64,000 nt of DNA. It comes from Isoptericola halotolerans. Its GTDB lineage: Bacteria > Actinomycetota > Actinomycetes > Actinomycetales > Cellulomonadaceae. Under the pieces are notes generated by a model that was not told the origin of the DNA, did not search any database, and saw nothing but the letters and a program-made list of their open reading frames with translations. The DNA is taken from NCBI RefSeq assembly GCF_003003075.1, contig NZ_PVTX01000003.1:62001-126000 (forward strand), read 5' to 3'. Positions 6,804 through 51,062 of this stretch are shown in pieces. A program made the translations under genes and the position numbers. The stretch's first letter is position 1. Each line of letters starts with the position of its first letter.

Positions 6804-6910
6804 GAGGTAGGGGCGCCGAGGCCGAGGTAGTAGCGGCGTCGCCGAGGTAGTAGCGCTGGCGCGCTACCTCGGCCGGCGCGCTACTACCTCGGCGAGGCCC
6901 GCACTACCTC
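6804..6910. repeat. GAGGTAG repeat array A (3 forward + 3 reverse)
   Basis: GAGGTAG cores start at 6804, 6824 and 6844. Reverse-complement cores (CTACCTC) occupy 6864-6870, 6884-6890 and 6904-6910. Every step within each set is exactly 20 bp. The forward set follows pspA and the reverse set follows the amidotransferase gene, which converge here. The two sets can pair, for example GCCGAGGTAGTAGCGC at 6841 with the downstream inverted copies. Confidence 0.9.
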
Positions 6911-6916
6911 GGGGTG

Positions 6917-7708
6917 CTAGCCGGCTGCGGCGAGCGCGACCTCGTCCGGGCCGTCGACGGCGCCGCGCACCTGCTCGAGGAACGCCTGGGCGAGCAGGTC
7001 GCCCGTCCGCGCCAGACCGTCGTCGTGCGCGGTCACCTGGGCATGGACGGCGGCCGTGTCGACGTCGACCTCCCCGAGCGCCCAGCGCACCGCCAGGGAC
7101 GGGCTCGCCTCCGGGTGGAACTGCACACCCAGCGCGGAGCCCCAGCGGAACGCCTGGTACGGGTACATGTCGGACCAGCCGAGCCACTGGGCGCCCGCGG
7201 GCAGCTCGATGATCGCGTCGGAGTGCATCGAGACCACCGGGGTCACGCAGCCAGGCGTCTCGACGTCGTCGGAACACGTCGCGCCGGCGGACCGGACGAG
7301 CGGTGCGAGGACCGGGTCCTCCAGCGCCTCGGCACGCCAGTGCACGTCGACGACGCCGGCCTCCCGCCCGGGCGGGGCGGCCACCTGCACCGCTCCCCCG
7401 CCGGCGACGGCGAGCAGCTGGGCACCGAGACAGATGCCGAGCGTGGGCAGCCCGTCGACGGCGGCGCGCGCCAGGAGCGAGCGCACCGCGGGGAGCCAGG
7501 GGGCGTCGTCGTCCGCGTAGGCGTGCATCTGCCCGCCGAGGACGATCAGGCCGTCACCGCACTCCTCGAGCGACGGCACCGGGTCCCCGGCGAAGGGTCG
7601 GACGACGCGGGCTCCCGGGAACGTCCGGGCGTACCGGTCGAGCGGCACGTCGGAGCCGTGCTGCAGGACGGTCACCTGCGGGTGGTCGGAGCGTGTGAAG
7701 TCGGGCAC
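6917..7708 (-). CDS. Class I glutamine amidotransferase-like protein
   Basis: A 263-residue GATase1 protein with the nucleophile motif GICLGAQLLA and the His-Glu motif VQFHPEAS, so the Cys-His-Glu triad is intact. Stand-alone enzymes of this type (GMP-synthase-like) hydrolyse glutamine or gamma-glutamyl compounds; the acceptor is unknown. Start GTG 7708 is preceded on its strand by TAATCT (7722-7717) with eight bases between, suggesting a leaderless mRNA divergent from the NYN gene. Its 3' end faces array A. Confidence 0.82.
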   Translation of the reverse strand: MPDFTRSDHPQVTVLQHGSDVPLDRYARTFPGARVVRPFAGDPVPSLEECGDGLIVLGGQMHAYADDDAPWLPAVRSLLARAAVDGLPTLGICLGAQLLAVAGGGAVQVAAPPGREAGVVDVHWRAEALEDPVLAPLVRSAGATCSDDVETPGCVTPVVSMHSDAIIELPAGAQWLGWSDMYPYQAFRWGSALGVQFHPEASPSLAVRWALGEVDVDTAAVHAQVTAHDDGLARTGDLLAQAFLEQVRGAVDGPDEVALAAAG

Positions 7709-7788
7709 GGCCGCTGAGATTACTCCGACCTGTCGCCGCGGTCCATGCTCGACCGCCGGAGCGACGACGGCCCGCGTACCCTGGGCGC

Positions 7789-8418
7789 ATGGTCTCCCCC
7801 TTCTCCGCGCCGATCACCTCGCCTGCGCCGTCGCCGAGCCCGGCGTCGCCGAACGAGCCGACCCGCACCACGTACCTCCTGGTCGACGGCGAGAACATCG
7901 ACGCCACGCTCGGCATGAACGTGCTGAACCGCCGCCCCAACCCCGAGGAGCGGCCGCGCTGGGACCGGATCACCAAGTTCGCGAGCAAGGTGTGGGGCTC
8001 CGACGTCGTCCCGCTGTTCTTCCTCAACGCGACCAGCGGCCAGATGCCGATGTCGTTCGTGCAGGCGCTGCTCGCGATGGGCTACCGGCCCATCCCGCTG
8101 GCGGCGAACGGTGACGAGAAGGTCGTCGACCTCGGTATCCAGCGCACCCTGGAGGCCATCGCCGGGCGCGAGGGCGACGTCCTGCTCGCGAGCCACGACG
8201 GCGACTTCCTGCCCCAGATCGAGCGCCTCCTGGCCGACGACGGCCGGCGGGTCGGGCTGCTGGCCTTCCGCGAGTTCGTCAACGGCCAGCTCACCTCGCT
8301 GACCGAGGAGGGGCTGGAGATCTTCGACCTGGAGGGCGACGTCGACGCCTTCACCAGCCCGCTGCCGCGCGTGCGGATCATCCCGATCGACGAGTTCGAC
8401 CCGCTGCGCTACCTCTGA
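7789..8418 (+). CDS. NYN-domain (PIN-like) putative ribonuclease
   Basis: A 209-residue protein with a Pro/Ser-rich N-terminus of about 25 residues, then a NYN fold: LLVDGEN (Asp33-Asn36) and, near residue 145, LLASHDGDFLPQIERLL with the conserved acidic residues. NYN proteins are metal-dependent nucleases acting on RNA; the target is unknown. TACCCT (7777-7782) ends six bases before ATG, consistent with a leaderless mRNA. Its stop lies three bases from the end of the converging membrane-protein gene. Confidence 0.82.
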   Translation: MVSPFSAPITSPAPSPSPASPNEPTRTTYLLVDGENIDATLGMNVLNRRPNPEERPRWDRITKFASKVWGSDVVPLFFLNATSGQMPMSFVQALLAMGYRPIPLAANGDEKVVDLGIQRTLEAIAGREGDVLLASHDGDFLPQIERLLADDGRRVGLLAFREFVNGQLTSLTEEGLEIFDLEGDVDAFTSPLPRVRIIPIDEFDPLRYL

Positions 8419-8421
8419 CGC

Positions 8422-9807
8422 TCAGGGGGTGGGGGTGGGCGTCGAGCGACGCCCACCCGGCACGTCGGCGATGCGCTGCGCCACCGAGATGCCCACCAGG
8501 CTGCCCACGAGCGCCAGCGACACGAGCACCAGGGCGACCCAGCTGAACCCGGTGACCACGACGACCAGCACGGACAGGCCGACCGCCACGAACCGCAGGG
8601 CGTCGGCGTGCTCGGCGACCCGCCGTGGCAACCTGCCGTCCTGGCCGCTCACCGTGCCGACCCAGGGCCACCGGTCCGCGGCGCGTCCGAGCCAGGCCGG
8701 ACGTCCCAGCAGCAGCGCGACGACGGCGGCCACGACGGCGATGATCCCGATCAGCCACAGGATCTCGTGCAGCCCTCCGGACACCGCGTCGAACAGCACG
8801 CCGGCGACCCGCTCGCCGTCCGGGGTGCGGGCGGCCTCCACGACGAGGCCTCGCAGCTGCGCGACGAGGGCGGCCGCGATCACCAGGCCGGCAGCCACGC
8901 CGATCGCGAGCTGGATCGCACCACGCCGGCGGTCGGGCGCCACGAGGACGGTCGCGACGATGAGCAGCACGGTGACCACCACCAGCGCCCACACGACGCG
9001 GTCCACGGTCCTGACGGTCCCCTGCACCATGTCGAACGTCTCGCGGTCGAGGAGGGCCACCTGGCCGAAGTCGTCCGGCAGCCGCGCACCGAGCGCCTCG
9101 CCGAGCTGGGCGCGCGCCTGCGGCGCGTTCTCCGTGACGGCGTCGGGCAGCGTCACACCGGGCAGCATGTCACCGACGCTCCCGAGCGCCTCGCGGAGCG
9201 CCTCGGCGATCAGCGGCGTCGTGTCGAGCATGACGGCGTCGTCGGTCAGGTAGACGTTCGGGTGGTCCTCGACGTCGGCGCGCGCGAGCGCGATCGCCCC
9301 GGTGTGCGCTCGTTCGACCAGCCGGGGCAGCCGCTCCCGGAACGCCTCGGACGTCACGAGGCGGTCCACGACCTTCTCCACCCGCTCCTCGAGGCGGTCG
9401 ACCACCACGGGCGTCAGCGCGGCGAGCGTCGGCCGGTCGACGCGGGTGCCGAGCGCCTCCAGCAACGGCCCCGGCTCGACCTCGAGCCGCTCGACGAGGG
9501 CGAGCGCCAGCACCTCGTCGAGCTCGGTGAGCCGGGCGGAGACGCGGGTGTCGAGGTCCAGGGCCAGCAGCGTCTGCTCGGTCACGTTGTCCGCGAGGGC
9601 GTCGTAGAACGCCGGGTCGTCCAGCACCGGCCCGACGGTGTCCATGAAGTCGTCGGTGTCGAACACCGTGCGGTGCGCCCACACCGCCACCGACGACGCG
9701 ACGACGAGCAGGGTGGTCACGACCACCAGGACGGCGGCGACCCACCGGCGCACGGCGTCACCACGAGAGCGGAGGGGGACGGTCTCGGCGGAGGTCACAC
9801 ACCGCAT
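8422..9807 (-). CDS. Integral membrane protein of unknown function
   Basis: A 461-residue protein I cannot assign to a named family. It has one N-terminal transmembrane segment (about 20-43), a roughly 225-residue Asp/Glu-rich extracytoplasmic region beginning with VFDTDDFMDTVGPVLDDPAFYDALADNV in two adjacent stretches, then about five C-terminal membrane segments (271-290, 297-317, 346-368, 403-421, 423-443). ATG 9807 or in-frame GTG 9798 could be the start; CAGGAT seven bases before the GTG favours the latter as leaderless. It is divergent from the two-component regulator at 9888. Confidence 0.7.
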   Translation of the reverse strand: MRCVTSAETVPLRSRGDAVRRWVAAVLVVVTTLLVVASSVAVWAHRTVFDTDDFMDTVGPVLDDPAFYDALADNVTEQTLLALDLDTRVSARLTELDEVLALALVERLEVEPGPLLEALGTRVDRPTLAALTPVVVDRLEERVEKVVDRLVTSEAFRERLPRLVERAHTGAIALARADVEDHPNVYLTDDAVMLDTTPLIAEALREALGSVGDMLPGVTLPDAVTENAPQARAQLGEALGARLPDDFGQVALLDRETFDMVQGTVRTVDRVVWALVVVTVLLIVATVLVAPDRRRGAIQLAIGVAAGLVIAAALVAQLRGLVVEAARTPDGERVAGVLFDAVSGGLHEILWLIGIIAVVAAVVALLLGRPAWLGRAADRWPWVGTVSGQDGRLPRRVAEHADALRFVAVGLSVLVVVVTGFSWVALVLVSLALVGSLVGISVAQRIADVPGGRRSTPTPTP

Positions 9808-9849
9808 CCTGGGTGCTGGGAGGAGTCCGCGCGACTCGTACGCCGCACG

Positions 9850-9866
9850 TTCAGGAAACCTTCAGG
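9850..9866. promoter_or_regulatory. Direct-repeat site for the adjacent response regulator
   Basis: TTCAGG occurs at 9850-9855 and again at 9861-9866, an 11-bp direct repeat. This is the geometry bound by tandem OmpR/PhoB-type regulators. It sits 22-38 bases upstream of the response-regulator ATG, near the -35 region, so it is a candidate autoregulatory site and might also act on the divergent membrane-protein gene. Confidence 0.5.
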
Positions 9867-9887
9867 GATGCGGCGCACACTGGACCC

Positions 9888-10631
9888 ATGGCCGCATCCA
9901 CCGACGCCCCCGAAGCACGGCTCGTCGTCGTCGACGACGAGCCGAACATCCGCGAGCTGCTCTCCACGTCCCTGCGCTTCGCCGGCTTCGAGGTGCACGC
10001 CGCGGCCGACGGCACGAGCGCGCTGCAGCTCGTGCGCGACACGGAGCCGGACCTCGTGGTGCTCGACGTGATGCTGCCCGACATGGACGGCTTCACCGTC
10101 ACCCGCCGGATGCGTGCCACCGGCCGGCACACGCCGGTGCTCTTCCTGACCGCTCGTGACGACACCCAGGACAAGATCCAGGGCCTCACGGTGGGCGGCG
10201 ACGACTACGTCACCAAGCCGTTCAGCCTCGAGGAGGTCGTGGCCCGGATCCGTGCCGTGCTGCGGCGCACCGCCGGCGGCGAGCCCGAGGACGACGCCGT
10301 GGTGCGCGTCGGCGACCTCGCCCTGGACGAGGACAGCCACGAGGTGCACCGCGCCGGCGTCGAGATCGAGCTCTCCCCCACCGAGTTCAAGCTGCTGCGC
10401 TACCTCATGCTCAACGCAGGCCGCGTCCTGTCCAAGGCGCAGATCCTCGACCACGTGTGGCAGTACGACTGGGGCGGCGACGCGAACATCGTGGAGTCCT
10501 ACATCTCCTACCTGCGCCGCAAGATCGACCACGTGACGGTCCCCGGGCCGGACGGCGCGGACGTCGAGCTCCCGCCGCTCATCCACACCAAGCGCGGTGT
10601 CGGCTACCTCCTGCGGGCACCGCAGCGATGA
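9888..10631 (+). CDS. OmpR/PhoB-family response regulator
   Basis: A 247-residue regulator from ATG 9888. The receiver domain has VVVDDEPNIRELL near residue 13, phospho-acceptor Asp60 in LVVLDVMLPDMDG, and conserved Thr and Lys in FLTARDD and YVTKPFSLEE. A winged-helix DNA-binding domain follows (SPTEFKLLRYLMLNAGRVLS, then YLRRKIDH). CACACT (9876-9881) is six bases before the ATG. It overlaps the kinase gene by ATGA and forms a cognate pair with it; the stimulus is unknown. Confidence 0.92.
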   Translation: MAASTDAPEARLVVVDDEPNIRELLSTSLRFAGFEVHAAADGTSALQLVRDTEPDLVVLDVMLPDMDGFTVTRRMRATGRHTPVLFLTARDDTQDKIQGLTVGGDDYVTKPFSLEEVVARIRAVLRRTAGGEPEDDAVVRVGDLALDEDSHEVHRAGVEIELSPTEFKLLRYLMLNAGRVLSKAQILDHVWQYDWGGDANIVESYISYLRRKIDHVTVPGPDGADVELPPLIHTKRGVGYLLRAPQR

Positions 10632-12235
10632 CCCCCCGCGACCGCCCCGACGGCATCGAGCCGACCTTCGCCGCACCGGAGGCTCCCGGAGCGGCGAGCG
10701 CGGCCGAGGCACCGCCGTCGGGCACGGACGCACCCGGGCCGACGGCGGAACCCGCCCCGAGCACGCCGGGCGAGCGGCGCTGGAGCTGGCTCAGCCGGGT
10801 GCCGCTGCGCGTGCGCCTGGTCGCGATCATCGTGCTGCTGCTGGGGGCGGGCATGGTCTTCGCGGGGATCGCGACCCGCACCGTGGTCTCGAACTACCTC
10901 GTGGACCAGCTCGACTCGCAGCTCAAGCAGTCGGCGCAGAACGTCGCGGAGATGACGGTCCGGGGCCCGGACGAGACCGGGCCCCGCATCCCCAGCGACT
11001 ACTCCGTCGCGCTGGTCAGCTGCAACGGCTACGACGAAGCGCCGATCGGCTGGCCCCAGACGCTCGACACGTTCGGCGAACCGGCGATCCCCGACGAGTC
11101 CCTGACGAGCGTGGTCGAGCGGGGCCTCGAGCCCTTCACCGTGGACTCCACGGGCGGCTCGGCCCCGTCCCAGTGGCGCGTCGTGTCCATCCCCTGCAGC
11201 CCCGACCACGGGAACACCCTCGACGGCGCCGCCTACGTCGCGCTGCCCCTGGCCGCCGTCGACAAGACGACCGCCTACCTGTCGAGCTCCCTGCTGTGGT
11301 CGGGCATCGGGATCGTCCTGCTCGGCGGCGCGCTCGCGTTCTGGCTGGTGCAGCACTCCCTGCGGCCGCTGCGCCGCATCGAGGCCACCGCTGCCGCCAT
11401 CGCGGAGGGCGACCTGTCCCAGCGCGTGCCCGAGCAGCCCTCCTCGACGGAGGTCGGCTCGCTGTCGCGCTCGCTCAACGTGATGCTCACGCAGATCGAG
11501 TCGGCGTTCGCCGTCCAGGAGGCCTCCGAGCAGCGCATGCGCCGGTTCGTCTCCGACGCGAGCCACGAGCTGCGCACGCCGCTCGCCACGGTGCGCGGGT
11601 ACGGCGAGCTGTACCGGATGGGCGCGCTGGACACGGACGAGAAGGTCGACGACACGATGGTCCGCATCGAGGACTCGGCCCGCCGGATGGGCACGCTCGT
11701 CAACGACCTGCTCGTCCTCGCCCGCCTCGACGAGGGCCGCCCCATGCGGCACGAGGTCGTCGACCTCGCGGCGCTCGCCCACGACACCGCTCAGGACCTG
11801 CACGCCCTCGACCCGACGCGCGCCGTCGCGGTCACAGGGCTGCGGCCCGGCGAGGCGCCGCCGGCCGCCCTGCACACCGTCGGTGACGCCGACCGGCTGC
11901 GGCAGGTCCTGACCAACCTCGTGGGGAACGTCGCCCGGCACACGCCGGCGGGGTCGCCCGCCGAGCTCGCCCTCGGGACGGTGGCCGAGGGCGTCGTCGT
12001 CGAGGTGCGCGACCACGGACCCGGCGTCTCGGACGAGCAGGCCGGGCGGATCTTCGAGCGTTTCTACCGCGCCGACTCCTCGCGCAACCGGGAGTCCGGC
12101 GGATCCGGCCTGGGTCTGGCGATCGTCGCGGCGATCCTGGGGGCGCACGGCGGCTCCGCAGCTGTGGCGCAGACGCCCGGCGGTGGACTGACCGTGCGGG
12201 TTCTCCTCCCGCCCGCGGGCCGCTACGCTGCGTGA
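10628..12235 (+). CDS. Membrane sensor histidine kinase
   Basis: A 535-residue kinase whose ATG overlaps the regulator's TGA. Order: Pro/Ala-rich N-terminus; TM1 at about 62-84; extracytoplasmic sensor of roughly 130 residues containing two Cys (SCNGYD and IPCSPDH) that might form a disulfide; TM2 at 219-241; HAMP; HisKA with His313 in SDASHELRTPLATVRGYGE; HATPase with GPGVSDEQ and GSGLGLAIV. It phosphorylates the regulator encoded just upstream. The architecture resembles actinobacterial PrrB/TcrY-like kinases. Confidence 0.92.
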   Translation: MTPRDRPDGIEPTFAAPEAPGAASAAEAPPSGTDAPGPTAEPAPSTPGERRWSWLSRVPLRVRLVAIIVLLLGAGMVFAGIATRTVVSNYLVDQLDSQLKQSAQNVAEMTVRGPDETGPRIPSDYSVALVSCNGYDEAPIGWPQTLDTFGEPAIPDESLTSVVERGLEPFTVDSTGGSAPSQWRVVSIPCSPDHGNTLDGAAYVALPLAAVDKTTAYLSSSLLWSGIGIVLLGGALAFWLVQHSLRPLRRIEATAAAIAEGDLSQRVPEQPSSTEVGSLSRSLNVMLTQIESAFAVQEASEQRMRRFVSDASHELRTPLATVRGYGELYRMGALDTDEKVDDTMVRIEDSARRMGTLVNDLLVLARLDEGRPMRHEVVDLAALAHDTAQDLHALDPTRAVAVTGLRPGEAPPAALHTVGDADRLRQVLTNLVGNVARHTPAGSPAELALGTVAEGVVVEVRDHGPGVSDEQAGRIFERFYRADSSRNRESGGSGLGLAIVAAILGAHGGSAAVAQTPGGGLTVRVLLPPAGRYAA

Positions 12236-12339
12236 CGGCCCCGTCGGCGCAGACGGCCGCACCGATCACGATTGTCGGTCGGCGGTCGTAGGCTGGCAGG
12301 GAGACAGAGAACGATCTCCGAGCGAAGGTCTTGATAGCG

Positions 12340-13068
12340 ATGGGCGTCCTGAGCGCCAGCGCGCCGCAGTGGTTCCTCTCGGCGTTCGTCCGCACCTGTC
12401 GAGGGGCGGGCGCCACGAAGCCCGAGGACTCGATCCGCTCGGTGGGTGAAGAGCTCATCGAGCGCTGGTCCGGGCCGGGCCGCCACTTCCACAACCTGCG
12501 TCACCTGGCCGCCGTCCTGCACCGGGTCGACGAGCTCGCTCACGAGACCCACGAGCCCGATCTCGTCCGGCTCGCCGCCTGGTACCACGGAGCGGTCTTC
12601 GACGCGGACCGCAAGGTCGCCTACGCGACCCGCGGCGGGGAGCAGACCACGCTCAGCGCGGAGCTCGCGCGCACGCAGCTTGTCGAGCTCGGCGTGCCCG
12701 TCGATTCGGCGGACCGGGTCGGCGAGCTCGTCGACACGCTCGCCCGGCACAAGGCGGCGGCCGGCGACTTCGACTCGGCGGTGCTCAACGACGCGGACCT
12801 GGGCATGCTCGCCGCGGAGCCGCAGCGCTACAAGGAGTACGTCGCGGAGATCCGGGCCGAGTACGCCCACATCCCGCTGTCCGACTACCTCGACGCGCGG
12901 ATCAAGGTCCTGACCAAGCTGCTGGGCCGCTCGAGGCTCTACGTGAGCCCGCTCGGCGCCACGTGGGAGGAGCCCGCCCGGCAGAACCTCGACGCCGAGC
13001 TCCACCGGCTCGTCAAGGAGCGCCGCAAGCTCGGCCTGGAGGCGACGGCGGGCCCGGCCCGCCAGTAG
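12340..13068 (+). CDS. HD-superfamily metal-dependent phosphohydrolase-like protein (COG4339 type)
   Basis: About 242 residues. ATG 12340 is preferred over TTG 12331 because GAAGG at 12324-12328 is correctly spaced for the ATG. The motif HFHNLRHLAAVLHRVDEL and then AAWYHGAVFD match predicted HD phosphohydrolases, but the usual His-Asp pair reads His-Gly here, so catalysis is uncertain. The C-terminal half is helical and basic. The substrate is unknown. Array B follows its stop codon. Confidence 0.75.
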   Translation: MGVLSASAPQWFLSAFVRTCRGAGATKPEDSIRSVGEELIERWSGPGRHFHNLRHLAAVLHRVDELAHETHEPDLVRLAAWYHGAVFDADRKVAYATRGGEQTTLSAELARTQLVELGVPVDSADRVGELVDTLARHKAAAGDFDSAVLNDADLGMLAAEPQRYKEYVAEIRAEYAHIPLSDYLDARIKVLTKLLGRSRLYVSPLGATWEEPARQNLDAELHRLVKERRKLGLEATAGPARQ

Positions 13069-13079
13069 CCCACCCCCCC

Positions 13080-13239
13080 GCCGAGGTAGTGGCCCACCCG
13101 CCGAGGTAGCGCCCCGCCCGCCGAGGTAGCGCCCCGCCCGGCGAGGTAGGGCCTCGCCCGCCGAGGTAGTGGCCCACCCGGCGAGGTAGGGCCTCGCCCG
13201 CCGAGGTAGTGGCCCACCCGGCGAGGTAGACGGTCGTCC
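13080..13239 (+). repeat. GAGGTAG repeat array B (8 forward)
   Basis: Eight consecutive 20-bp units begin at 13080, 13100, 13120, 13140, 13160, 13180, 13200 and 13220. Each starts with GCCGAGGTAG or GGCGAGGTAG followed by about ten variable bases (such as TGGCCCACCC, CGCCCCGCCC or GGCCTCGCCC, each recurring). All read in the direction of the preceding HD gene. The next gene is co-oriented, and no reverse copies are present. Confidence 0.95.
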
Positions 13240-13330
13240 ACAGGTTGTGGACGACGGCGGCGCGCGCCTCTCGCTGAGCCCTACCGTCGTGCTCAGCCCG
13301 GTCCACCGGGACGACGACGGAGGAGACAGC

Positions 13331-13618
13331 ATGCGGTACGAGGTCGACAGCGAGCGGGTGGCGCAGGCGAGCGCCGCCGTGAACGGTTCCGTGGGAGCCA
13401 TCCGGGCCGAGGTCGGCGCGATGATGCGCCACCTGCACGATCTGCAGTCGAGCTGGCACGGCAGCGCCGCGACGTCGTTCGCGGGGGTCATGACGCAGTG
13501 GCAGTCGGCGCAGACGCAGGTCGAGGCTGCCCTCGACTCCGTGACGGCGGCGCTGCAGTCCGCCTCGACCACCTATGCGGACGCGGAGAGCCAGGCCGCC
13601 CGCCTCTTCGCCCGCTGA
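13331..13618 (+). CDS. WXG100-family (ESAT-6-like) protein
   Basis: A 95-residue helical-hairpin protein with the central turn Trp42-His43-Gly44 (SSWHGSAA) in place of W-x-G and heptad-like helices either side, matching WXG100 proteins secreted by type VII (ESX) systems. The ATG has a strong GGAGGAGA site. No ESX ATPase, EccB-E or partner WXG gene is nearby, so it is an orphan; its secretion apparatus, if any, is elsewhere. It may also act inside the cell. Confidence 0.85.
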   Translation: MRYEVDSERVAQASAAVNGSVGAIRAEVGAMMRHLHDLQSSWHGSAATSFAGVMTQWQSAQTQVEAALDSVTAALQSASTTYADAESQAARLFAR

Positions 13619-13628
13619 CCCGGTAGGC

Positions 13629-13700
13629 GTTGTGGGCGCGATTTCTGGGCTCGATTGATGCCCATACCGGGCAATACGGGCCAGAAATCGCGCCCACAAC
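13629..13700. repeat. 72-bp hairpin element, copy 1
   Basis: Perfect 20-bp inverted arms GTTGTGGGCGCGATTTCTGG (13629-13648) and its complement (13681-13700) flank a 32-base middle that starts GCTCGAT, ends CGGG and holds a small inner stem TGCCC/GGGCA. The same arms and spacing recur at 18911-18982. It lies between the converging WXG100 and groEL genes, so it could serve as a bidirectional terminator. Confidence 0.9.
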
Positions 13701-13716
13701 CACGAATGCAGTGCAA

Positions 13717-13765
13717 GACGGCGGCCGGTCGCCCCGGGGACTTCCCAGGACGACCGGCCGCCGTC
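13717..13765 (-). terminator. groEL terminator hairpin
   Basis: A perfect 15-bp stem (GACGGCGGCCGGTCG with its complement at 13751-13765) around a 19-base loop, just downstream of the groEL stop codon. Confidence 0.65.
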
Positions 13766-13802
13766 GTGCGTGGCGCGGGCTACCGCGCCGAGCGGACGTG
13801 GA

Positions 13803-15515
<1,713 letters not shown>

Positions 15516-15582
15516 TCACGGGCGTGGGCGTGCCTCACCTTTCGACCAAGGTTGTTCACCCCGGCTGTCACTCGACGGCCGA

Positions 15583-15625: not shown

Positions 15626-15712
15626 ACGTTCCGCCGCCAGCGCACCGTGGCGCTCCAGTGGCGCCCGGTCCGGCCAGGTCAGCGCCCGACGGCGGGACCC
15701 GGACACGACGAA

Positions 15713-24660: not shown

Positions 24661-24732
24661 GCCAGTCGTGAACGCAAGACACCCGACCACAACGGATCGT
24701 CCGGCACGTACCTGCCGGTGGAGGGAATCACC

Positions 24733-25848
<1,116 letters not shown>

Positions 25849-27224: not shown

Positions 27225-27541
27225 GAGGTAGTGGCGGTCCCGCCGAGGTAGTAGAGGTTCCGGCCGAGGTAGTAGCGATTGCCGCGAGGTAGCACAGTTC
27301 TCGCTGAGGTAGCCCGACGCCGCGAGGAGACGCCGGGGCGGCGAGCGTCGGAGCCGGGTGGCGGAGGCCCGTGGACGCGCGTCACTCCGGACGGCGACCC
27401 GCCGGACGCCCCTCTACCCGCCGCCGTCGGCCACTACCTCGGCGCGAGCGCTACTACCTCGGCCGGAACCTCTACTACCTCGGCGTATGTGCCACTACCT
27501 CGGCCGAGCCGCTACTACCTCGGCGGAGATGTGCCTACCTC
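27225..27541. repeat. GAGGTAG repeat array C (5 forward + 6 reverse)
   Basis: Forward GAGG cores start at 27225, 27245, 27266, 27286 and 27306. Reverse CTACCTC cores end at 27440, 27460, 27481, 27501, 27521 and 27541. Steps are 20 or 21 bp. Forward units follow the DUF4032 gene and reverse units follow rlmB, which converge here. The central ~120 bases (27313-27432) are GC-rich with no gene or clear terminator that I can see. This accounts for the whole 347-base gap. Confidence 0.93.
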
Positions 27542-36371: not shown

Positions 36372-36621
36372 GAGGTAGCGCTGGCCCGGCCGAGGTAGTG
36401 GCTCATCCGCCGAGGTAGCGCTGGCCCGGCCGAGGTAGTGGCTCATCCGCCGAGGTAGCGCTGGCCCGGCCGAGGTAGCAGCGAAAGGCCCCTCCCGCTC
36501 GAGCGGGAGGGGCCTTTCGTCGCGGTGCGCGCTACTACCTCGGCGTCTGCACCACTACCTCGGCGTCTGCGTTTCTACCTCGGCGGGTGAGCCACTACCT
36601 CGGCGGGCGCGGCACTACCTC
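36372..36621. repeat. GAGGTAG repeat array D (6 forward + 5 reverse)
   Basis: Forward GAGGTAG starts at 36372, 36392, 36412, 36432, 36452 and 36472. Reverse CTACCTC ends at 36541, 36561, 36581, 36601 and 36621. All steps are exactly 20 bp. The forward spacers alternate between two sequences, forming three 40-bp dimers. Forward units follow the lipoprotein gene, reverse units follow pstB, and a strong hairpin terminator sits in the centre. Confidence 0.95.
36481..36523. terminator. Bidirectional terminator within array D
   Basis: GAAAGGCCCCTCCCGCTCGA pairs with the complementary right half ending CCTTTC, an 18-bp-plus stem with a minimal TCGA tip, flanked by A-rich and T-rich ends. It serves the converging lipoprotein gene and the pst operon. 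Confidence 0.88.
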
Positions 36622-42822: not shown

Positions 42823-42894
42823 GCCCTCAGCCTAGGTCGCGGCGACGCCCTCGCCGTGCCGGTGCGCCGTCTGCTTCCTGACGTGTCGTCCACT

Positions 42895-42927
42895 GTTCAC
42901 CTGTGGACCTCGTGACGTTCACCTGGG
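42895..42927. promoter_or_regulatory. PHO box between phoR and phoU
   Basis: GTTCACCTGTG (42895), a degenerate unit GACCTCGTGAC, and GTTCACCTGGG (42917) make three 11-bp steps with consensus outer units. It sits in the divergent promoter region, so PhoP can control both phoU and its own phoRP operon, as in Streptomyces. Confidence 0.82.
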
Positions 42928-42978
42928 AGTCTGGGCCGGCTGCGAGAGTTGCTCAGCACCAGAATCGAGAGGACACCC

Positions 42979-43647: not shown

Positions 43648-43666
43648 GCAGCGCAGCACCGCTGCC

Positions 43667-43697
43667 GGCCCGCAGGTTCACGCCGAACCTGCGGGCC
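43667..43697 (+). terminator. phoU terminator
   Basis: GGCCCGCAGGTT, a seven-base loop, then AACCTGCGGGCC: a perfect 12-bp stem 20 bases after the phoU stop codon. Confidence 0.8.
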
Positions 43698-43767
43698 GCA
43701 GTGCGTTCGAGGCGCGCACGCGGCGCTGCGGGTCCGTGAGGACGTCGACATCGGGGACAGGACCGAC

Positions 43768-43809
43768 GACGACGGCGACGCGCCCGCCGTGGGGTGCGTC
43801 GCCGTCGTC
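43768..43809 (-). terminator. gpmA terminator
   Basis: GACGACGGCGACGC (43768-43781) pairs with GCGTCGCCGTCGTC (43796-43809) around 14 bases, just downstream of the gpmA stop codon on the minus strand. Confidence 0.65.
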
Positions 43810-43840
43810 CGGGTCGTCCGGGTGGTGCCGGTGTGCCGGC

Positions 43841-44581
43841 CTACTTGCCCTGGTTGGCCACGGCCGCGATGGCGTCCTTCGCGGCCTCCGGGTCGAGGTA
43901 GGTGCCGCCCGGGTTGGTCGGCTCGAGCGTCTCCTCGTCGAGCTCGTAGAGCAGCGGGATGCCCGTCGGGACGTTGAGCCCGGCGATGGTCTCGTCGTCG
44001 ACGCCGTCGAGGTGCTTGATGATCGCGCGCAGCGAGTTGCCGTGCGCGGCCACCAGGACCGTCTTGCCGGCCTGCAGGTCGGGGACGATCTCGCCGTCCC
44101 AGTAGGGCAGGGCCCGCTCCAGCACCTGCTTGAGCGCCTCGCTGCGCGGGATCGGCTCGCCCGCGTAGCGGACGTCGGAGTCCTGCGAGAACTCCGAGCC
44201 GAGCTCGATCTCGGGCGGCGGCACGTCGTACGAGCGACGCCAGAGCATGAACTGCTCCTCGCCGTACTGGTCGCGGACCTGCTTCTTGTCCTTGCCCTGG
44301 AGGTCGCCGTAGTGGCGCTCGTTGAGGCGCCAGCTGCGCTTGACCGGGATCCAGTGGCGGTCCGCGGCGTCGAGGGCGTAGTTCGCCGTCATGATGGCGC
44401 GGCGCAGCAGGGAGGTGTGCAGCACGTCGGGCGTGACGCCCGCCTCCTTCAGGAGGGTGCCGCCGCGCTTCGCCTCCCCGATGCCCTTGTCCGACAGCGG
44501 GACGTCGACCCAGCCGGTGAAGAGGTTCTTGGCGTTCCACTCGCTCTCGCCGTGGCGGAGCAGCACGAGGGTGTAGGTCAT
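43841..44581 (-). CDS. gpmA: 2,3-bisphosphoglycerate-dependent phosphoglycerate mutase
   Basis: A 246-residue dPGM interconverting 3- and 2-phosphoglycerate in glycolysis. The phosphohistidine motif [10 protein letters not shown] (His10), [11 protein letters not shown] and [17 protein letters not shown] are intact. A GGAGG site precedes the ATG, and CAGGAT overlaps it as a possible -10. Confidence 0.96.
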
Positions 44582-44675
44582 GCCTCCATCCTGCCCTGCC
44601 CCCCGGGCCGGACGCACCATCCGGCCGGATCGCGGACGCCGACCGTCCGTCGTCCCGCCGTCGGGCCACCCGCCG

Positions 44676-45149
44676 TCAGGCGTCCGCGCGCTCCAGGACG
44701 AAGACGGGGATCTCGCGGTCCGTCTTCTGCTGGTACTCGGCGTAGTCGGGCCAGGCCTCGACCGCGCGCTCCCACCACGCCGACTTCTCCTCGCCGGTGA
44801 CCTCACGGGCGACGTAGTCGTGCTTCTCGGTGCCGTCCTGCAGCTCGACCTGCGGGTTCGCCACGATGTTGAAGTACCAGACGGGGTGCTTCGGCGCACC
44901 GCCGAGCGAGGCGACGACGGCGTAGGCGCCGTCGTGCTCCACGCGCATCAGCGGGGTCTTGCGCACCTTGCCGCTCTTGGCGCCGATCGTCGTCAGGATG
45001 ACGACCGGCTTGCCCCGCAGCGTGGTGGCCTCGGTGCCGCCCGAGGACTCGTACTTGTCGACCTGGTCGGCGGCCCAGGTGGACGGGCTGGGAACGTACT
45101 CTCCGGTGATAGGCATGTCCGCGGCAACGCCGTCGTGCGGGTCGGGCAT
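44676..45149 (-). CDS. F420H2-dependent nitroreductase-family (Ddn/FDOR-A) protein
   Basis: A 157-residue split-barrel protein of the deazaflavin-dependent nitroreductase family ([20 protein letters not shown], the F420-phosphate-binding Lys/Arg region; [16 protein letters not shown]). Members reduce quinones and nitro-compounds with F420H2; the substrate is unknown. ATG 45116 is a possible later start. Two GAGGTAG units lie between mshA and this gene. Confidence 0.85.
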
Positions 45150-45159
45150 TCCCGGCGCC

Positions 45160-45186
45160 CTACCTCGGCGCGGGCGGCACTACCTC
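45160..45186 (-). repeat. GAGGTAG repeat array E (2 copies) at the mshA stop
   Basis: CTACCTC at 45160-45166 and 45180-45186, 20 bp apart, reading GAGGTAG in the mshA direction. The TAG of the upstream unit (45182-45180) is the mshA stop codon. Confidence 0.85.
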
Positions 45187-46484
45187 GCGCGGCGGACCTT
45201 GCCGGCCTGCTCGTACACGTCGAGCATCGCCGCGGCGGCACGGTCCCAGGAGAACCGCTCGCTCGCCCGGCGCGCACCGGCCGCGAGCCGGGTGAGCCGT
45301 GGCTCGTCCGCGAGCAGCGCGGTCAGCTCCCGCGCCCACGTCCACGGGCTGTGGTCGCCCACCAGCACCCCCGAGACGTCGTCGACCACCACGGTCTGCA
45401 GCCCGCCCACCGCCGCGGCCACGACGGGCGTCCCGCAGGCCTGTGCCTCCGCCGCCACCAGGCCGAAGGACTCGTTGTGCGACGGCACCGCGACGACGTC
45501 GGCCGCCCGGTACCAGTCGGCGAGCTCGTCGCGCGGCACCGGCGGGCGCACGTCCACGTGCTCGGTGACCCCTACCTGGTGGGCCAGGGCCTCGAGCTCG
45601 CGCACCGCCGTCGGGCGCCCGCTCGCACCGCCCAGCACCACGAGGCACGGCAGCGCGCCGTCGTCTCGTGCGCCCGCCGGGTCCGCATGGTCCGCCATGA
45701 CCCCGAGCGCGCGCACCAGGACGTCCGGGCCCTTGAGCAGCTGTACCCGCCCGGCGAAGAGCACCACCGGCCGGTCCGTGGGCAGGCCGAGCCGCTCGCG
45801 CAGCGCGCGCCGGGCCTGCGCCGTCGTCCCCGCGGCGGGCGCCGACGGCGCGAACTCCTCCAGGTCGACGCCCGGGGCCACCACGTGCACCCGGTCCGGG
45901 TCCGCGCCGCAGTAGCGGACCAGGTCGTCGGCCTCCTCCCGCGTCGACGCGACGAGCGCGTCCGAGGCCTCGACCACCTGCTCCTCACCGATGACCCGCC
46001 CCTGCGGCTCCGGGACGTCGCCCGGCGCGAGCGCCGCGTTCTTCACGTGCGCCATCGTGTGCATGGTGTGCACCAGCGGGACGTCCCACCGCTCGGCGGC
46101 CAGCCACCCGACCTGCCCCGAGAGCCAGTAGTGCGAGTGCACGACGTCGTACCAGTCGGCCGGGCGGTGCGCCTCGGCCCGCAGCACCCCGGCCGTGAAC
46201 GCGCAGAGCTGCCCGGGCAGGTCGTTCTTGTCGAGCCCCTCGTACGGCCCCGCCGCGACGTGCACCACCCGGATGCCCGGCTCCACCTCGACCACCTTCG
46301 GCTGGGCCGACGTCGTCGCACGGGTGTAGATCTCCACCTCGGCCCCGCGTCGGGCCAGCGCCCGCGACAGCTCCAGGACGTAGACGTTCATCCCGCCCGC
46401 GTCCCCCGCACCCGGCTGGTCCAGCGGCGAGGTGTGGACCGAGAGCATCGCGACGCGCGGACCGGGCCGGGCCGGGGTGGTCAT
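45180..46484 (-). CDS. mshA: D-inositol-3-phosphate glycosyltransferase (mycothiol biosynthesis)
   Basis: A 434-residue GT4 enzyme joining GlcNAc from UDP-GlcNAc to inositol 3-phosphate, the first mycothiol step. Hallmarks: [53 protein letters not shown] and [25 protein letters not shown] 46484 overlaps the lactonase stop by four bases. The C-terminus ends at a TAG that lies within a repeat unit. Confidence 0.95.
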
Positions 46485-47548
46485 CGTGCCACCACGACGC
46501 ATGCCGGCGGCGTCGCCCACGGCACGCGGGAGACGACCTCGCCCGCACCGGAACCGGCGTCCAGCCGCACCGCGGCCAGCTCGCTGGACCCCTGCAGCGC
46601 CACGACCACCAGCTCGGTGCCGTCCTCGGCCAGGACCTCGTGGTGCCGGGGCCAGCCGCCGTCCCCGAGCGGGGTGTCCGCGAGGTGCGTGAGCTCCGGT
46701 GCGGCGCCGTCGGCCACCGCGTGGACCGCGAGGACGTCGGGCCCCCGCACCCCCAGGTGCAGCCGCGTCCCGTCCGCGCTCAGCGTCAGGTGCCCGCCGA
46801 ACTCCTCGCCGGCGACGGCGCCCGGCCGGACCGGCACGGCACCCGCGTGCTCCCAGCCGTCACCCGACGGGACCAGCACGTGGAGGCGCGCGTCGAGCTC
46901 ACCGACCACCACCAGCGCACCGCTCGGCAGGACGACGAGGTGGCGAGGACCGGTGCCAGCGGGGAGTCGGGCGGCCACGTCGTCCTCCGCCGGGGTGCGG
47001 CCCGGGTCGGCATCGACCGGGTAGCGCCGGATCAGGTCGGCGCCGAGATCGGTGACCAGCACGTGGTCGCCCACGGCCGTGACCTGGTGGGCGTGCGGCC
47101 CCGCCTGCCGGTCCGCGACCGGGCCGGTGCCCTCGCCGACGTGGACCGCACGGTGGTCCGCCGCCGGGGCGCCGTCGTCGGCCACCGCGACCGCTGCTGC
47201 GGCGCCGTCGCCGTAGTTGGCGACCCACACGGTGCGGGGCGTCGCCACGACGTGGCACGGGTCGTCGCCGCCGGAGGCCAGGCCCCCGAGCGGTGCGAGG
47301 CCGTCGTCGCCGGACACCTGCAGGGCCGTCAGGCGGCCGGGCGCCGTCTCCGAGACGGCGTAGAGCGCCGGCACCTGCGGGTGCAGCGCGAGGAACGAGG
47401 GCGCTGCGACCTCGGCGGCGAGCGTCGGGGTGCCGAAGGCTCCGGTGCCCGGGTCGACGTCGATCCGCCACACGCCCTCGCCGGTGCCCGGCGTGCTGCC
47501 GGCGGGATAGGTGCCGATCCACAGGTTCCGGGAGCTCGAGGAGATCAT
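46481..47548 (-). CDS. Lactonase-family (6-phosphogluconolactonase-like) beta-propeller protein
   Basis: A 355-residue seven-bladed propeller of the YbhE/Lactonase family ([20 protein letters not shown] at the start, [30 protein letters not shown]). E. coli YbhE hydrolyses 6-phosphogluconolactone; that activity is plausible but untested here. ATG 47548 follows TACGCT (47560-47555) by six bases, so it is likely leaderless. It precedes and overlaps mshA. Confidence 0.85.
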
Positions 47549-47628
47549 GGGTCAAGCGTAGGCTCCGGCGGCAGCGCCGGCGGGCCGGGGACGACGCCGG
47601 CCGACGGCGGCGGGGCCCGGACAGCACC

Positions 47629-47660
47629 GCGCCCCGGCGGGGCTGATCCGACCGGGGCGC
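47629..47660 (-). terminator. lsr2 terminator
   Basis: GCGCCCCGG, 14 bases, CCGGGGCGC: a perfect 9-bp stem 20 bases downstream of the lsr2 stop codon. Confidence 0.6.
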
Positions 47661-47679
47661 AGGCTGGTTGTGGTGCGGG

Positions 47680-48015
47680 TCAGTGCGCGGCCTCGTAGGC
47701 CTCCAGGACGCGACCCGGGATGCGGCCACGGTCGTTGACCGTGTGGCCGTTGTCGCGAGCCCACTCGCGGATCTTCTGCAGCTGCTCGCGGTCGGTGCGA
47801 CCGCGGCGCGAGGATGTCGCGGCGCGGGGGGCGGTCTTCGCCGCCGTCTTGCGTCCGTGCCCGATCCACTGGGACAGGGACTCGCGGAGCTCGGCAGCGT
47901 GCGCTGCAGAGAGGTCGATCTCGTACGACACGCCGTCCAGCGCAAAGGTGACCGTCTCGTCACCCTCGCTGCCGTCGATGTCGTCGATCAGCACGACCTG
48001 TGTCTTCTGAACCAC
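47680..48015 (-). CDS. lsr2: Nucleoid-associated xenogeneic silencer Lsr2
   Basis: A 111-residue Lsr2: N-terminal oligomerisation domain ([20 protein letters not shown], with [17 protein letters not shown]), basic linker with repeated Arg/Lys, and the C-terminal AT-hook-like domain ([19 protein letters not shown]). It binds AT-rich DNA and silences acquired genes. GTG 48015 has GGAGG eight to nine bases upstream; an ATG 45 bases further upstream would add a non-homologous leader. Confidence 0.95.
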
Positions 48016-48033
48016 GCTGTCACCCTCCGGTGC

Positions 48034-48085
48034 CTCGAATTGATTGAGCGATTCGAGCATGCACGAGCAGGGAATGAAAAGTCAA
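48034..48085 (-). promoter_or_regulatory. lsr2 promoter and adjacent inverted repeat
   Basis: On the minus strand TTGACT (48085-48080), 18 bases, CATGCT (48061-48056) read as a good sigma-70-type promoter. Immediately downstream, CTCGAAT (48034-48040) and ATTCGAG (48051-48057) form an inverted repeat covering the expected transcription start, a possible operator. The leader is about 34 bases. Confidence 0.6.
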
Positions 48086-48127
48086 CTCAACACGACGAGT
48101 CCCGACTTCTTCATTGCCGCGGCCGAG

Positions 48128-48298
48128 TCATTCCCGGAATTGCTTCTCCGCCGCAGCCCGCGCCTCGGCATCATGGAGCTCGAGTGCCGCGCGCTCGTTC
48201 CGGTCGGCCCGCACGATCTTTCGCATCACCAACCAGAAGAGCAAGCCGACCCCCACGGAGGGGACGAGTCCTGCGAGCACCGCCCAGAACGTATCCAT
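48128..48298 (-). CDS. Small single-pass membrane protein downstream of lysS
   Basis: A 56-residue protein, MDTFWAVLAG at the N-terminus, with one hydrophobic helix (about 5-26) and a charged C-terminal helix rich in Arg, Glu and Ala ending KQFRE. The ATG has AAGG at a good distance, and it begins 12 bases after lysS, so it is probably the second gene of that operon. Family unknown; small proteins at this position occur in related genomes. Confidence 0.72.
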   Translation of the reverse strand: MDTFWAVLAGLVPSVGVGLLFWLVMRKIVRADRNERAALELHDAEARAAAEKQFRE

Positions 48299-48309
48299 GG
48301 CCTGCCTTC

Positions 48310-49836
48310 TCAGTGCGTCGGCTTGACGAGCGGGAACAGAATGGTCTCGCGGATTCCCGCACCGGTGAGTGCCATGAGCAACCGATCGATACCCATCCCC
48401 ATTCCTCCGGCCGGGGGCATCGCAAACTCCATCGCCATCAGGAAGTCGTCGTCGAGACGCATGGCCTCGTCGTCGCCGGCCGCCGCCAGCCGCGCCTGCG
48501 CCTCGAAGCGCTGCCGCTGGATCACCGGGTCGACGAGCTCAGAATAGGCCGTGGCGAGCTCGAACCCGCGCACGTAGAGGTCCCACTTCTCGACCTGCCC
48601 CGGCACGCTGCGGTGGTCGCGAGTGAGCGGGGACGTCTCGACAGGAAAGTCCCGCACGAAGGTCGGTGCGTGGAGATGGTCACCGACGTGGTGCTCCCAC
48701 AGCTCTTCGACGAGCTTTCCGTGATTGGCCTTCTTCGGGTCGACCGCGATCTCGACCTTGTCGGCGAGAGCCGTGAGGTGCTCCACCGACGTCTCGGGCG
48801 TGATCTCCTCACCCACGGCGGCCGAGAGGGAGTCGTACATCTTGATGTCCGCCCACTCGCCACCGAGGTCGTACTCCTCGCCGTCGGCCAGCGTGACCAG
48901 CGTGGTACCGAGGACGTCCTCGGCAGCCTGTTGCACGAGATTCTTGGTGAGCGCGGCCATGGTGTCGTAGTCACCGTAGGACTCGTACGCCTCGACCATC
49001 GCGAACTCGGGCGAGTGCGAGGAGTCCGCGCCCTCGTTGCGGAAGTTGCGATTGATCTCGAAGACGCGCTCGACGCCGCCGACCACGGCCTTCTTGAGGA
49101 ACAGCTCCGGCGCGATCCGCAGGAACAGCTCCATGTCGTAGGCGTTCATGTGCGTCTCGAACGGCCGCGCGGTGGCGCCCGAGGCGACCGTCTGCAGCAT
49201 CGGCGTCTCGACCTCGAGAAAGTCGCGCCGGTGGAAGTTCTCGCGCAGCGAGCGCACGACGCCCGCGCGGACCCGCACCATGTCACGCGCCGCGGGGCGC
49301 GCGATGAGGTCCACGTACCGCTGGCGGACGCGCGCCTCCTCCGACAGCTCCTTGTGCAGCACCGGCAGCGGGCGCAGCGCCTTCGCCGCCATCTTCCACT
49401 CGTCCGCGAAGATGCTCAGCTCGCCCCGGCGGGACGCCCCGACACGCCCGTGGACGAACAGGTGGTCACCGAGGTCGACGTCGGCCTTGAACGCCGCCAG
49501 CGACTCCTCGCCGACGACCTTCTGGCTGAGCATCGCCTGGAGCCGGTTCCCCTCGCCGTCCTGCAGCGAGACGAAGCAGAGCTTGCCCGTGTTGCGCAGG
49601 AACACGACGCGACCCGCGACCCCGACGAGGTCGTCCGTCTCGACACCGGGCTCGAGGTGGCCGTAGCCGTCGCGGACCGCGGCGATCGTGGTGGTGATCG
49701 GCAGGCTGACGGGATACGCCTCGCCGCCCTCGGCGATGATGCGGTCGCGCTTCTCGAGGCGCACTCGCAGCTGCTCGGGGAGGTCGTCGGGCAGGTCGTC
49801 GGGCACAGGTGAGCCGGGATTCGCGGGGGTCGTCAC
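48310..49836 (-). CDS. lysS: Lysyl-tRNA synthetase, class II
   Basis: A 508-residue synthetase: N-terminal OB-fold anticodon domain ([24 protein letters not shown]) and class II core with motif 2 region [21 protein letters not shown] and motif 3 [15 protein letters not shown]. There is no N-terminal membrane MprF-like domain, so this is the housekeeping enzyme, not LysX. It is divergent from nadC. Confidence 0.96.
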
Positions 49837-49876
49837 CGTTCGATTCTACGGCCCGACCGAACCTCTCCCCCCACGT

Positions 49877-49934
49877 TGTGGGTGCACGACACGCCGTCGG
49901 CAGGATCAGTCGAGCGGCGTGTCGTGCACCCACA
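49877..49934. repeat. 20-bp-stem inverted repeat between lysS and nadC
   Basis: TGTGGGTGCACGACACGCCG (49877-49896) and its exact complement (49915-49934) flank 18 bases. The outer flanks CCCC/GGGG extend the pairing with mismatches. The genes on each side diverge, so a terminator role is not obvious. It shares a TTGTGGG head with the 72-bp elements but otherwise differs. Confidence 0.85.
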
Positions 49935-49976
49935 GCGGGGTGGGGGGCGGGGCGACGGCGGCGGTACCGTTCGGGT

Positions 49977-50912
49977 GTGACCACGCCCGACAGCACCCCG
50001 GACCACGCCCCCGCCGCCGTCACGCCCGGCCTCGACGCCGCATGGATCGCGCGCACGGTCGAGACGGCGCTCGACGAGGACCTCGGCCCCGCGCCCGGCC
50101 GGGACGTCACCACCCAGGCCACGGTGCCGCCGTCGGCCACCGGGACCGCCGACCTGGTCGCCCGCGAGGAAGGCACCGTCGCCGGGCTGGTGACGGTGAC
50201 CGAGACGCTCCGCCAGACGGCCCGCCGGCTCGGCCTGCCCGAACCCGAGGTGACCTTCCACGCCCAGGACGGCTCCGCCGTCGTGCCCGGGCAGGTGCTG
50301 GCCACCCTGACCGGCAGCACGCAGGTGCTGCTCGTCGCGGAGCGGACCCTGCTCAACCTGGCCTCTCGTGCCTCCGGCGTGGCCAGCGCGGCCGCCGCGT
50401 TCAGCCGCGAGCTCGCCGGGACCGGCGCCCAGGTGCTCGACACCCGCAAGACCACGCCGGGGCTGCGGGCGCTGGACAAGTACGCGGTGCGCGCGGGCGG
50501 CGGGACCAACAAGCGCATGGGGCTGTACGACGTCGCGATGGTCAAGGACAACCACGTGGTCGCCGCCGGCGGGGTGGGCGCCGCGATCCGGGCCGTGCGC
50601 GCCACGTTCCCCGACGTGCTCGTGCAGGTGGAGGCCGACACGACCGCCCAGGCCATGGAGGCGCTCGACGCGGGCGCCGACTTCCTGCTCCTGGACAACA
50701 TGCCCACCGCGGTGCTCGCCGCGACCGTCGCCGCCGTCCGCGAGCGCCAGGGGCGCGACGGCGTGGCGGAGCACGTCGAGCTGGAGGCTACGGGCAACCT
50801 CACCCTCGACCGGGCGCGGGAGGTGGCCTCGACCGGGGTGGACTACCTGTCGGTCGGGGCGCTCACGCACTCCGCGCCGATCCTCGACCTCGCCCTCGAC
50901 CTGCGGGCCTAG
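49977..50912 (+). CDS. nadC: Quinolinate phosphoribosyltransferase (carboxylating)
   Basis: A 311-residue NadC converting quinolinate and PRPP to nicotinate mononucleotide in de novo NAD synthesis. Seen: NLASRASGVASAAAAF, TRKTTPGLRALDKYAVRAGG, KDNHVVAAGG and EADTTAQAMEALDAGADFLLLDN. GTG 49977 is supported by TACCGT (49965-49970) six bases upstream (leaderless). It converges on nadB, its pathway partner, across array F. Confidence 0.95.
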   Translation: MTTPDSTPDHAPAAVTPGLDAAWIARTVETALDEDLGPAPGRDVTTQATVPPSATGTADLVAREEGTVAGLVTVTETLRQTARRLGLPEPEVTFHAQDGSAVVPGQVLATLTGSTQVLLVAERTLLNLASRASGVASAAAAFSRELAGTGAQVLDTRKTTPGLRALDKYAVRAGGGTNKRMGLYDVAMVKDNHVVAAGGVGAAIRAVRATFPDVLVQVEADTTAQAMEALDAGADFLLLDNMPTAVLAATVAAVRERQGRDGVAEHVELEATGNLTLDRAREVASTGVDYLSVGALTHSAPILDLALDLRA

Positions 50913-50915
50913 CCA

Positions 50916-51062
50916 CTACCTCAGCGCGAGCCGCACTACCTCGGCGCGCCGGGCACTACCTCGGCGCGCCGGGCACTACCTCGGCGCGCCGGGCACTACC
51001 TCGGCGCGAGCCGTACTACCTCGGCGCGCGGGGCACTACCTCGGCACGCGGGGCACTACCTC
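50916..51062 (-). repeat. GAGGTAG repeat array F (8 copies) after nadB
   Basis: CTACCTC cores end at 50922, 50942, 50962, 50982, 51002, 51022, 51042 and 51062, all exactly 20 bp apart. The first-listed core reads CTACCTCAGC, a one-base variant of the flank. Several adjacent units are identical (GGCGCGCCGGGCACTACCTC). All read GAGGTAG in the nadB direction, none in that of the converging nadC. The TAG of the unit nearest nadB (51058-51056) is the nadB stop codon. Confidence 0.95.

Follow-up and report, generated by a model that had tools for sequence, protein, structure and literature searches.

The 64,000-nucleotide stretch of the Isoptericola halotolerans genome analysed here (assembly GCF_003003075.1, contig NZ_PVTX01000003.1, positions 62,001 to 126,000; hereafter the window) carries the short core GAGGTAG in tandem arrays at the ends of its genes, and we consider it rather probable that these arrays are the dispersed repeats of a two-part system whose second part is a gene, here called X, lying elsewhere in the genome. 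The core occurs 60 times in the window, against a mean of 3.0 and a maximum of 7 in dinucleotide shuffles, an excess of about 20-fold. Arrays account for 46 of these copies (A 6, B 8, C 11, D 11, E 2, F 8), the other 14 being isolated matches. This recount bears out the 46 cores in six places, all sharing one core, that were reported in the initial annotation, as well as its 20-bp step with two exceptions of 21 bp, both of which belong to array C. Array units were located by the exact 7-mer, and gene boundaries are the calls of an in-house codon-usage caller. The arrays are laid out as follows.

6804..6850, plus strand: array A, forward arm, 3 units; starts 1 bp past the TGA of gene 6065-6802 (PspA/IM30)
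6864..6910, minus strand: array A, reverse arm, 3 units; 6 bp off the stop of gene 6917-7708 (minus strand)
13083..13229, plus strand: array B, 8 units; 3′ of gene 12340-13068
27225..27312, plus strand: array C, forward arm, 5 units; 3′ of a DUF4032 gene
27434..27541, minus strand: array C, reverse arm, 6 units; 4 bp off the stop of a SpoU-family methylase gene (RlmB-like is our own label)
36372..36478, plus strand: array D, forward arm, 6 units; higher-order period of 40 bp
36482..36519, no strand assigned: palindromic terminator-like hairpin between the arms of array D
36535..36621, minus strand: array D, reverse arm, 5 units; 3′ of an ABC ATPase gene
45160..45186, minus strand: array E, 2 units; first core contains the TAG stop of a glycosyltransferase gene, 45180-46520 (minus strand)
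50916..51062, minus strand: array F, 8 units; first core contains the TAG stop of gene 51056-52732 (minus strand; FAD-binding, NadB-like being our own label)

Two arms stand head to head in A (3+3), C (5+6) and D (6+5); B runs on the plus strand only, and E and F on the minus strand only. The description of all arrays as intergenic needs amending for E and F, whose outermost cores reach into the genes that they follow, the gene at array F converging with a QRPTase (NadC-like) gene. Likewise, the conserved core is confined to the invariant seven bases by which the units were located, since the T that follows is merely preferred (74% of 136 own-genome units). Directly past array B (about 13230-13255) lies a palindrome around GTCCACAGG/TGTGGAC, and a similar palindrome is kept at junction B in several species, array-less ones included.

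The period is far stricter than the sequence it separates. Genome-wide, the pattern GAGGTAG-N12-14-GAGGTAG is found 239 times (145+94) in the own genome, against 0+0 for the reversed pattern. In the window together with 17 own-genome stretches and 93 loci of relatives, both chosen for their array content, 532 of the 541 steps between neighbouring cores are exactly 20 bp; the 93 loci come from a scan of named genomes that gave at least 103, the 10 from other taxa being left out. Adjacent 13-bp spacers differ at 4.0 positions on average, with five or more differences in 160 of 354 pairs, and the spacing is therefore maintained as the spacer drifts. This supports the proposal that these are regularly spaced recognition sites, with a constant step, a short conserved core and spacers free to vary.

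A search of the genome and its relatives confirmed the element across the genus, and additionally brought to light other cores, other periods and the array-flanked, nuclease-type gene. At least one GAGGTAG pair is present in 20 of 38 genomes (own and relatives), counts outside the genus being 3 or fewer, near control level, and tandem triples occur in 11 of the 18 genus genomes. Among the matches listed in the scan of named genomes, most belong to Isoptericola and Krasilnikoviella flava, with a few in Oerskovia flava and Cellulosimicrobium and single oddities. Each species favours a particular triplet directly after the core, the own genome TGC/TGG, I. chiayiensis and AK164 GCA, the RH59 metagenome-assembled genomes (MAGs) CGC, K. 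flava TTC and QY 916 TAC. In sister species whose orthologous gene ends (RlmB-like, NadC-like, junction B) lack GAGGTAG arrays, other cores form the arrays found there, namely GAGTCAG (G009, G012) and G[AG]GTCAG (G002) at 20 bp, and GAGATAG at 22 bp (G005, G010). Pairs of GAGTCAG number 239 in G009, 282 in G012, 64 in G002 and 0 in the remaining 15 genus genomes, and pairs of GAGATAG 89 in G005, 74 in G010, 49 in G006, 12 in G004 and at most 2 elsewhere; a reversed-pattern control is uninformative in this case because GAGATAGAG contains the reversed core. Two dialects coexist in G004, G006 and G010, each with its own period, and in a two-protein tree with several weak nodes the same dialect recurs in non-sister species. 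Three genomes (G003, G008, G013) are array-less; in G008, the sister of the own genome and G011, all three array types are missing and the junctions are short. The repeat is thus a genus-wide element with species dialects. A seeming one-strand bias of the G012 arrays was discarded as an effect of listing, reverse arms being present in the same stretches.

Inverted pairs of the form GAGGTAG-N3-30-CTACCTC extend further: 18 of the 25 genera in the family and 40 of its 81 genomes have them, in numbers that are often near control level but in some reach 20-50 copies; those of G019 and G057 are mostly 35-nucleotide hairpins, and the examples viewed in other genera lie mainly behind genes. A phage or plasmid origin was considered and rejected. 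Array B gave no blastn match in phage, viral or plasmid collections, and the 11 viral pattern matches consist of 10 with a 10-bp step and one (L365, G+C 0.45) that is a perfect 20-bp repeat with an invariant spacer. Isolated 20-bp arrays of the same anatomy were seen in an Anaerolineales MAG contig (L148) and, directly behind a probable stop codon, in Nonomuraea wenchangensis (L079, 4463-4509).

Of six genes viewed between two inward-facing arrays, two (L161 of the own genome and L076) are of the AbiEi/MTES_1575 type. This is gene X, which joins an AbiEi-like winged-helix DNA-binding region to a Vsr/homing-endonuclease-like nuclease domain, and which in the own genome is placed as follows.

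Contig C2, about 207.8-208.9 kb, outside the window: X of the own genome (L161)

At one position, locus I, X is flanked on both sides by inward-facing arrays in 10 of the 10 genomes where it was located, and at locus II, with a 22-bp period, it is flanked on both sides in 4 of 4. At both loci the flanking arrays always carry the genome's own dialect core and period; this comparison covered 420 bp of flank, which undercounts the left-side units of one homologue (L317). In unselected stretches, by comparison, double flanking was found for 1 of 613 genes, and a further 418 genes gave only X itself, so that overall 1 of 1,029 other genes is flanked in this manner. The types of X pair with different cores and periods, firmly for 20 and 22 bp and in one case each for 19 and 21 bp, and X diverges much faster than its neighbour genes, most of all in the winged-helix region.

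A PF18741 search of the 18 genus genomes gave 63 matches, of which 44 fall in small proteins. We took 40 of these 44 genes (the C2 gene of G000 was already covered as L161, which is flanked; two of G007 and one of G015 were omitted), and a single subclade with a support of 0.98 contains the array-flanked genes. The X genes of G005, G006, G009, G012 and G017 were added through sequence comparison with picks based on position or geometry; the geometry picks yielded X in two of four new stretches (L445 and L446, not L447 and L448), and L356 likewise proved to be X. Four X proteins match PADLOC AbiEi models (best E 8.2e-16, 7.5e-14, 7.9e-9 and 1.9e-9), Pfam AbiEi_1 exceeds its cut-off in one (L356), and X has the fold and the catalytic residues of the Vsr/EDxHD nuclease superfamily; a PDB sequence search with X gave no match below E 0.7. 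X might also be read as a defence nuclease, with the arrays as decoy, self-marking or autoregulatory sites restraining it. The match to defence-library AbiEi models (E 8e-16) suits this explanation, as do the giant MTES_1575 proteins with a Vsr domain, for which a role in conflict systems was proposed (PMC3710099), but hundreds of gene-end core pairs would exceed what titration or autoregulation should need, and we regard it as quite unlikely. From nucleases of the I-Bth0305I/Vsr type, X differs in being flanked by arrays that are dispersed in the host genome and in its full-length architecture; it was not seen in an intron or intein, for which no search was made.

Short cores, species dialects and inverted pairs at gene ends are also characteristic of the DNA uptake sequences (DUS) of the Neisseriaceae. 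The Isoptericola arrays share all three features, inverted pairs between convergent genes included, and could in principle be species-specific uptake sequences spread by biased transformation. They differ, however, in being tandem and locked to a period, which to our knowledge is no feature of DUS, in the coexistence within one genome (G004, G006, G010) of two dialects that differ in period, and in their link to a nuclease-type gene, the flanking of which this explanation leaves unaccounted for; we therefore consider it very unlikely.

The arrays keep away from promoters and concentrate where genes converge. In syntenic regions of 12 array-bearing genomes they occupy 25 of 92 junctions between convergent genes, 16 of 446 between tandem genes and 1 of 88 between divergent ones. 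Tabulation against stop codons, which the initial annotation had advised, shows that of 124 arrays having a same-strand stop no more than 200 bp away, 41 contribute the stop codon themselves, as the TAG of the first core. Stop-overlapping GAGGTAG arrays are sense in 47 cases and antisense in 1, against 2 sense and 6 antisense for GAGTCAG, a core whose stop (TGA) is on the other strand and whose stretches were drawn from a partial list; overlap with a gene thus depends on a stop codon being supplied. Away from stop codons, GAGGTAG arrays in tandem junctions are 29 sense and 22 antisense, the sense bias at such junctions being owed largely to stop-overlapping arrays, and in convergent junctions 42 sense and 6 antisense to the nearer gene, because of the head-to-head layout. 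Single arms fold near shuffle level (mean z -0.95 sense and -0.77 antisense; 27 of 112 arrays below -2). The overlap that supplies a stop and the 29:22 ratio argue against a function in the sense RNA. Of the binding sites on DNA or RNA that had been suggested, DNA is favoured as the level of action, because single arms are little structured and the tandem sense bias comes largely from stop overlap.

Two other readings were set aside on the same data. We initially preferred an RNA sense model, on the strength of 16 out of 16 sense arrays at the tandem junctions of the syntenic set, and abandoned it because of the 29:22 ratio in the larger GAGGTAG set and the reversed bias of stop-overlapping GAGTCAG arrays; an array of Shine-Dalgarno-like sites or stop codons was abandoned because GAGTCAG, read in sense, contains neither. 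An Rfam search of the window returned tRNA and msiK only, with no match to an array, and among 10 array-bearing loci msiK alone exceeded its gathering score, the remaining matches being weak. The msiK RNA motif of the window lies at 24674-24733 (60.5 bits).

The same positions could also be those of a working host 3′-end element, whether a terminator, an insulator between convergent genes or a protein platform in the 3′ untranslated region, X being merely one neighbour among many. Tandem, oriented sites behind genes are found in the eukaryotic roadblock terminators Sal-box/TTF-I and Reb1, which the Isoptericola arrays resemble in these respects, although we know of no dialect turnover or linked nuclease in those systems. 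The junction bias, the conservation of positions across dialects, the strict spacing, the 42:6 orientation at convergent junctions, the head-to-head arms frequently centred on a palindrome and the presence of non-X genes between arrays all speak for such an element. As to intrinsic-terminator features, the centres are often palindromic, but at junction D the hairpin is separate from the arrays and is found in species with and without arrays there. Moreover, a close relative of the own genome (G008) lacks all three types of array, tandem arrays clear of stops show little orientation, GAGTCAG arrays also occupy divergent junctions (6 of 55), single arms show little RNA structure, and the dialect-matched flanking of X is left unexplained. 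We consider this explanation unlikely, although single arrays may serve the host.

A closer parallel is offered by repetitive extragenic palindromic (REP) sequences, their bacterial interspersed mosaic elements (BIME) and the associated transposase RAYT (TnpA-REP), together termed the REPtron. REPtrons consist of short repeats dispersed behind genes, mostly by convergent or unidirectional genes; a genome can contain several repeat families, each with a single enzyme gene that is often bordered by copies of its own repeat (PMC6006769, PMC3733652). The comparison with REP/BIME that had been recommended thus reveals the same layout: gene-end repeats are dispersed, several families share a genome, and the enzyme gene is flanked by its own repeats (10/10 and 4/4 for X). 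It breaks down at the enzyme and at the unit. X is AbiEi-like with a Vsr-like nuclease domain, and the Y1 HUH transposase family PF01797 was found in 0 of 18 genus genomes at E 0.001, the same search being positive in 5 of 14 control genomes. The Isoptericola unit is a direct repeat with a fixed period of 19-22 bp, a free spacer and little-structured single arms, instead of a hairpin with a GT[AG]G foot, and the GAGTCAG dialect has no GTAG. Hence, despite the GTAG within the GAGGTAG core, the hairpins, the 3′ positions and the repeat-flanked enzyme gene, it is extremely improbable that the arrays are REP/BIME elements moved by a Y1 transposase. We file the system as one that works like REP/RAYT without being a member, because its enzyme is of another kind and the usual Y1 enzyme is absent.

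The association of enzyme and repeat is not restricted to the two loci. A stretch from another genus taken for its repeats alone (L317) contains an X homologue bordered left and right by 21-bp GAGGTAG units, and a third type of X (L330, in G001) is flanked asymmetrically, by 19-bp arrays at one end and by single inverted units at the opposite end. Three members of the subclade that were first scored as unflanked (L412, L428, L444) have one- or two-unit repeats of 19 or 20 bp, with other cores, on both sides. The more distant family members viewed are flanked by single long hairpins, such as GTGGGTGCACGAC and GTTGTGGGCGCGAT. Some of the hairpin copies are dispersed, including one in the window.

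49878..49933, no strand assigned: dispersed copy of the GTGGGTGCACGAC hairpin, copies of which flank a different AbiEi-DUF559-type gene of the own genome (L405)

Overall, 31 of the 40 small PF18741 genes have a 12-mer common to both flanks, compared with 29 of 773 controls, or 17 of 261 when both flanks are at least 150 bases long. Among the nine genes without one, L415 and L417 do have arrays, the spacers of which have diverged, and L435 was covered only in part by the stretch examined.

Further repeats accompany the arrays. A second dispersed element with the conserved stretch CGAAGTGGAGnGCnCCCnGnGnCCCGTGAACGCGA is present in all 18 genus genomes at two mismatches or fewer, with up to 26 copies (L237 and other places; in the own genome C3:184956, C5, C6 and C2), and near-identical stretches lie between array arms at several junctions. 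In species with GAGGTAG-CGC, a conserved central stretch (GAATGAATCGGTCGCTGCGCTCC...) separates the arms (L108, L123, L181, L182, L184). At the same gene end in another genus (L209, L212) there are GGTGGTTGAGCC-GTCGAAACCACC repeats, several per junction, which are possibly another repeat family of this class.

To explain arrays and enzyme together, we infer that X spreads the repeats by binding the core and cutting. Each repeat unit would correspond to one footprint of X, which would bind the core and nick or cut next to it; subsequent repair, through slippage or with another array as the template, would duplicate units in register and seed new arrays, much as a homing enzyme propagates its own target. 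Arrays would persist where they do least harm, that is behind genes and off promoters, and would extend into a gene only if the core supplies the stop codon. A change in the specificity of X would turn the arrays over to a new dialect, and loss of X would lead to their decay.

Several observations weigh against the two-part system. Spacer sharing between loci of the own genome is marginal (3 exact pairs, against a mean of 0.6 and a maximum of 3 in shuffles). An array is present at the orthologous junction B in 8 of 15 genomes, with the core GAGGTAG, GAGTCAG or GGGTCAG, and such recurrence at the same junctions across species fits local function as well as hot spots. X scores 19.9-29.5 bits against the curated PF18741 cut-off of 38.2. 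A matching X was not located in array-bearing G002, G011 and G016, nor was the locus I type in G010 despite 17 GAGGTAG pairs; in G013, locus I was not found in the 280 kb taken. Since the PF18741 search also overlooked the X genes of G005, G006 (type II), G009, G012 and G017, failure to locate X is no proof of absence, yet it leaves gaps. In K. flava (G004) both X genes (L415, L417) look broken while 160 GAGGTAG pairs remain, which may be relics or the work of a third enzyme. Stretches chosen for their arrays also show other genes between inward arrays, which include at least L051, L069 and L344 (NUDIX), L070 and G001 (NadC-like), and further L110 (SpoU-type methylase), L163, L447 and L448. 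Finally, locus I and locus II each represent a single syntenic position passed on by descent, which reduces the fourteen cases to a handful of independent associations.

The flanking of X suggests a partnership between repeats and an AbiEi-Vsr-like gene of which we found no description in the literature covered, preprints and most subscription journals excepted. More generally, there is about an even chance that the solitary AbiEi-DUF559 genes of actinobacteria constitute a second, HUH-independent class of REPtron, in which a homing-like nuclease reads its own short repeat through the winged helix and amplifies it in register. Period and core would then reflect the footprint and the specificity of the enzyme, GAGGTAG-type repeats forming the tandem-array branch and single long hairpins the other. 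If true, an orphan protein type would gain a function and many of the dispersed repeats at actinobacterial gene ends an origin, and the enzyme would be one that spreads repeats without HUH chemistry. With several enzyme types coexisting, each matched by a core and a period, the genus would also offer a natural experiment in the joint change of a DNA-binding domain and hundreds of its sites. It is also a caution against taking every hairpin behind a gene in this family for an ordinary terminator.

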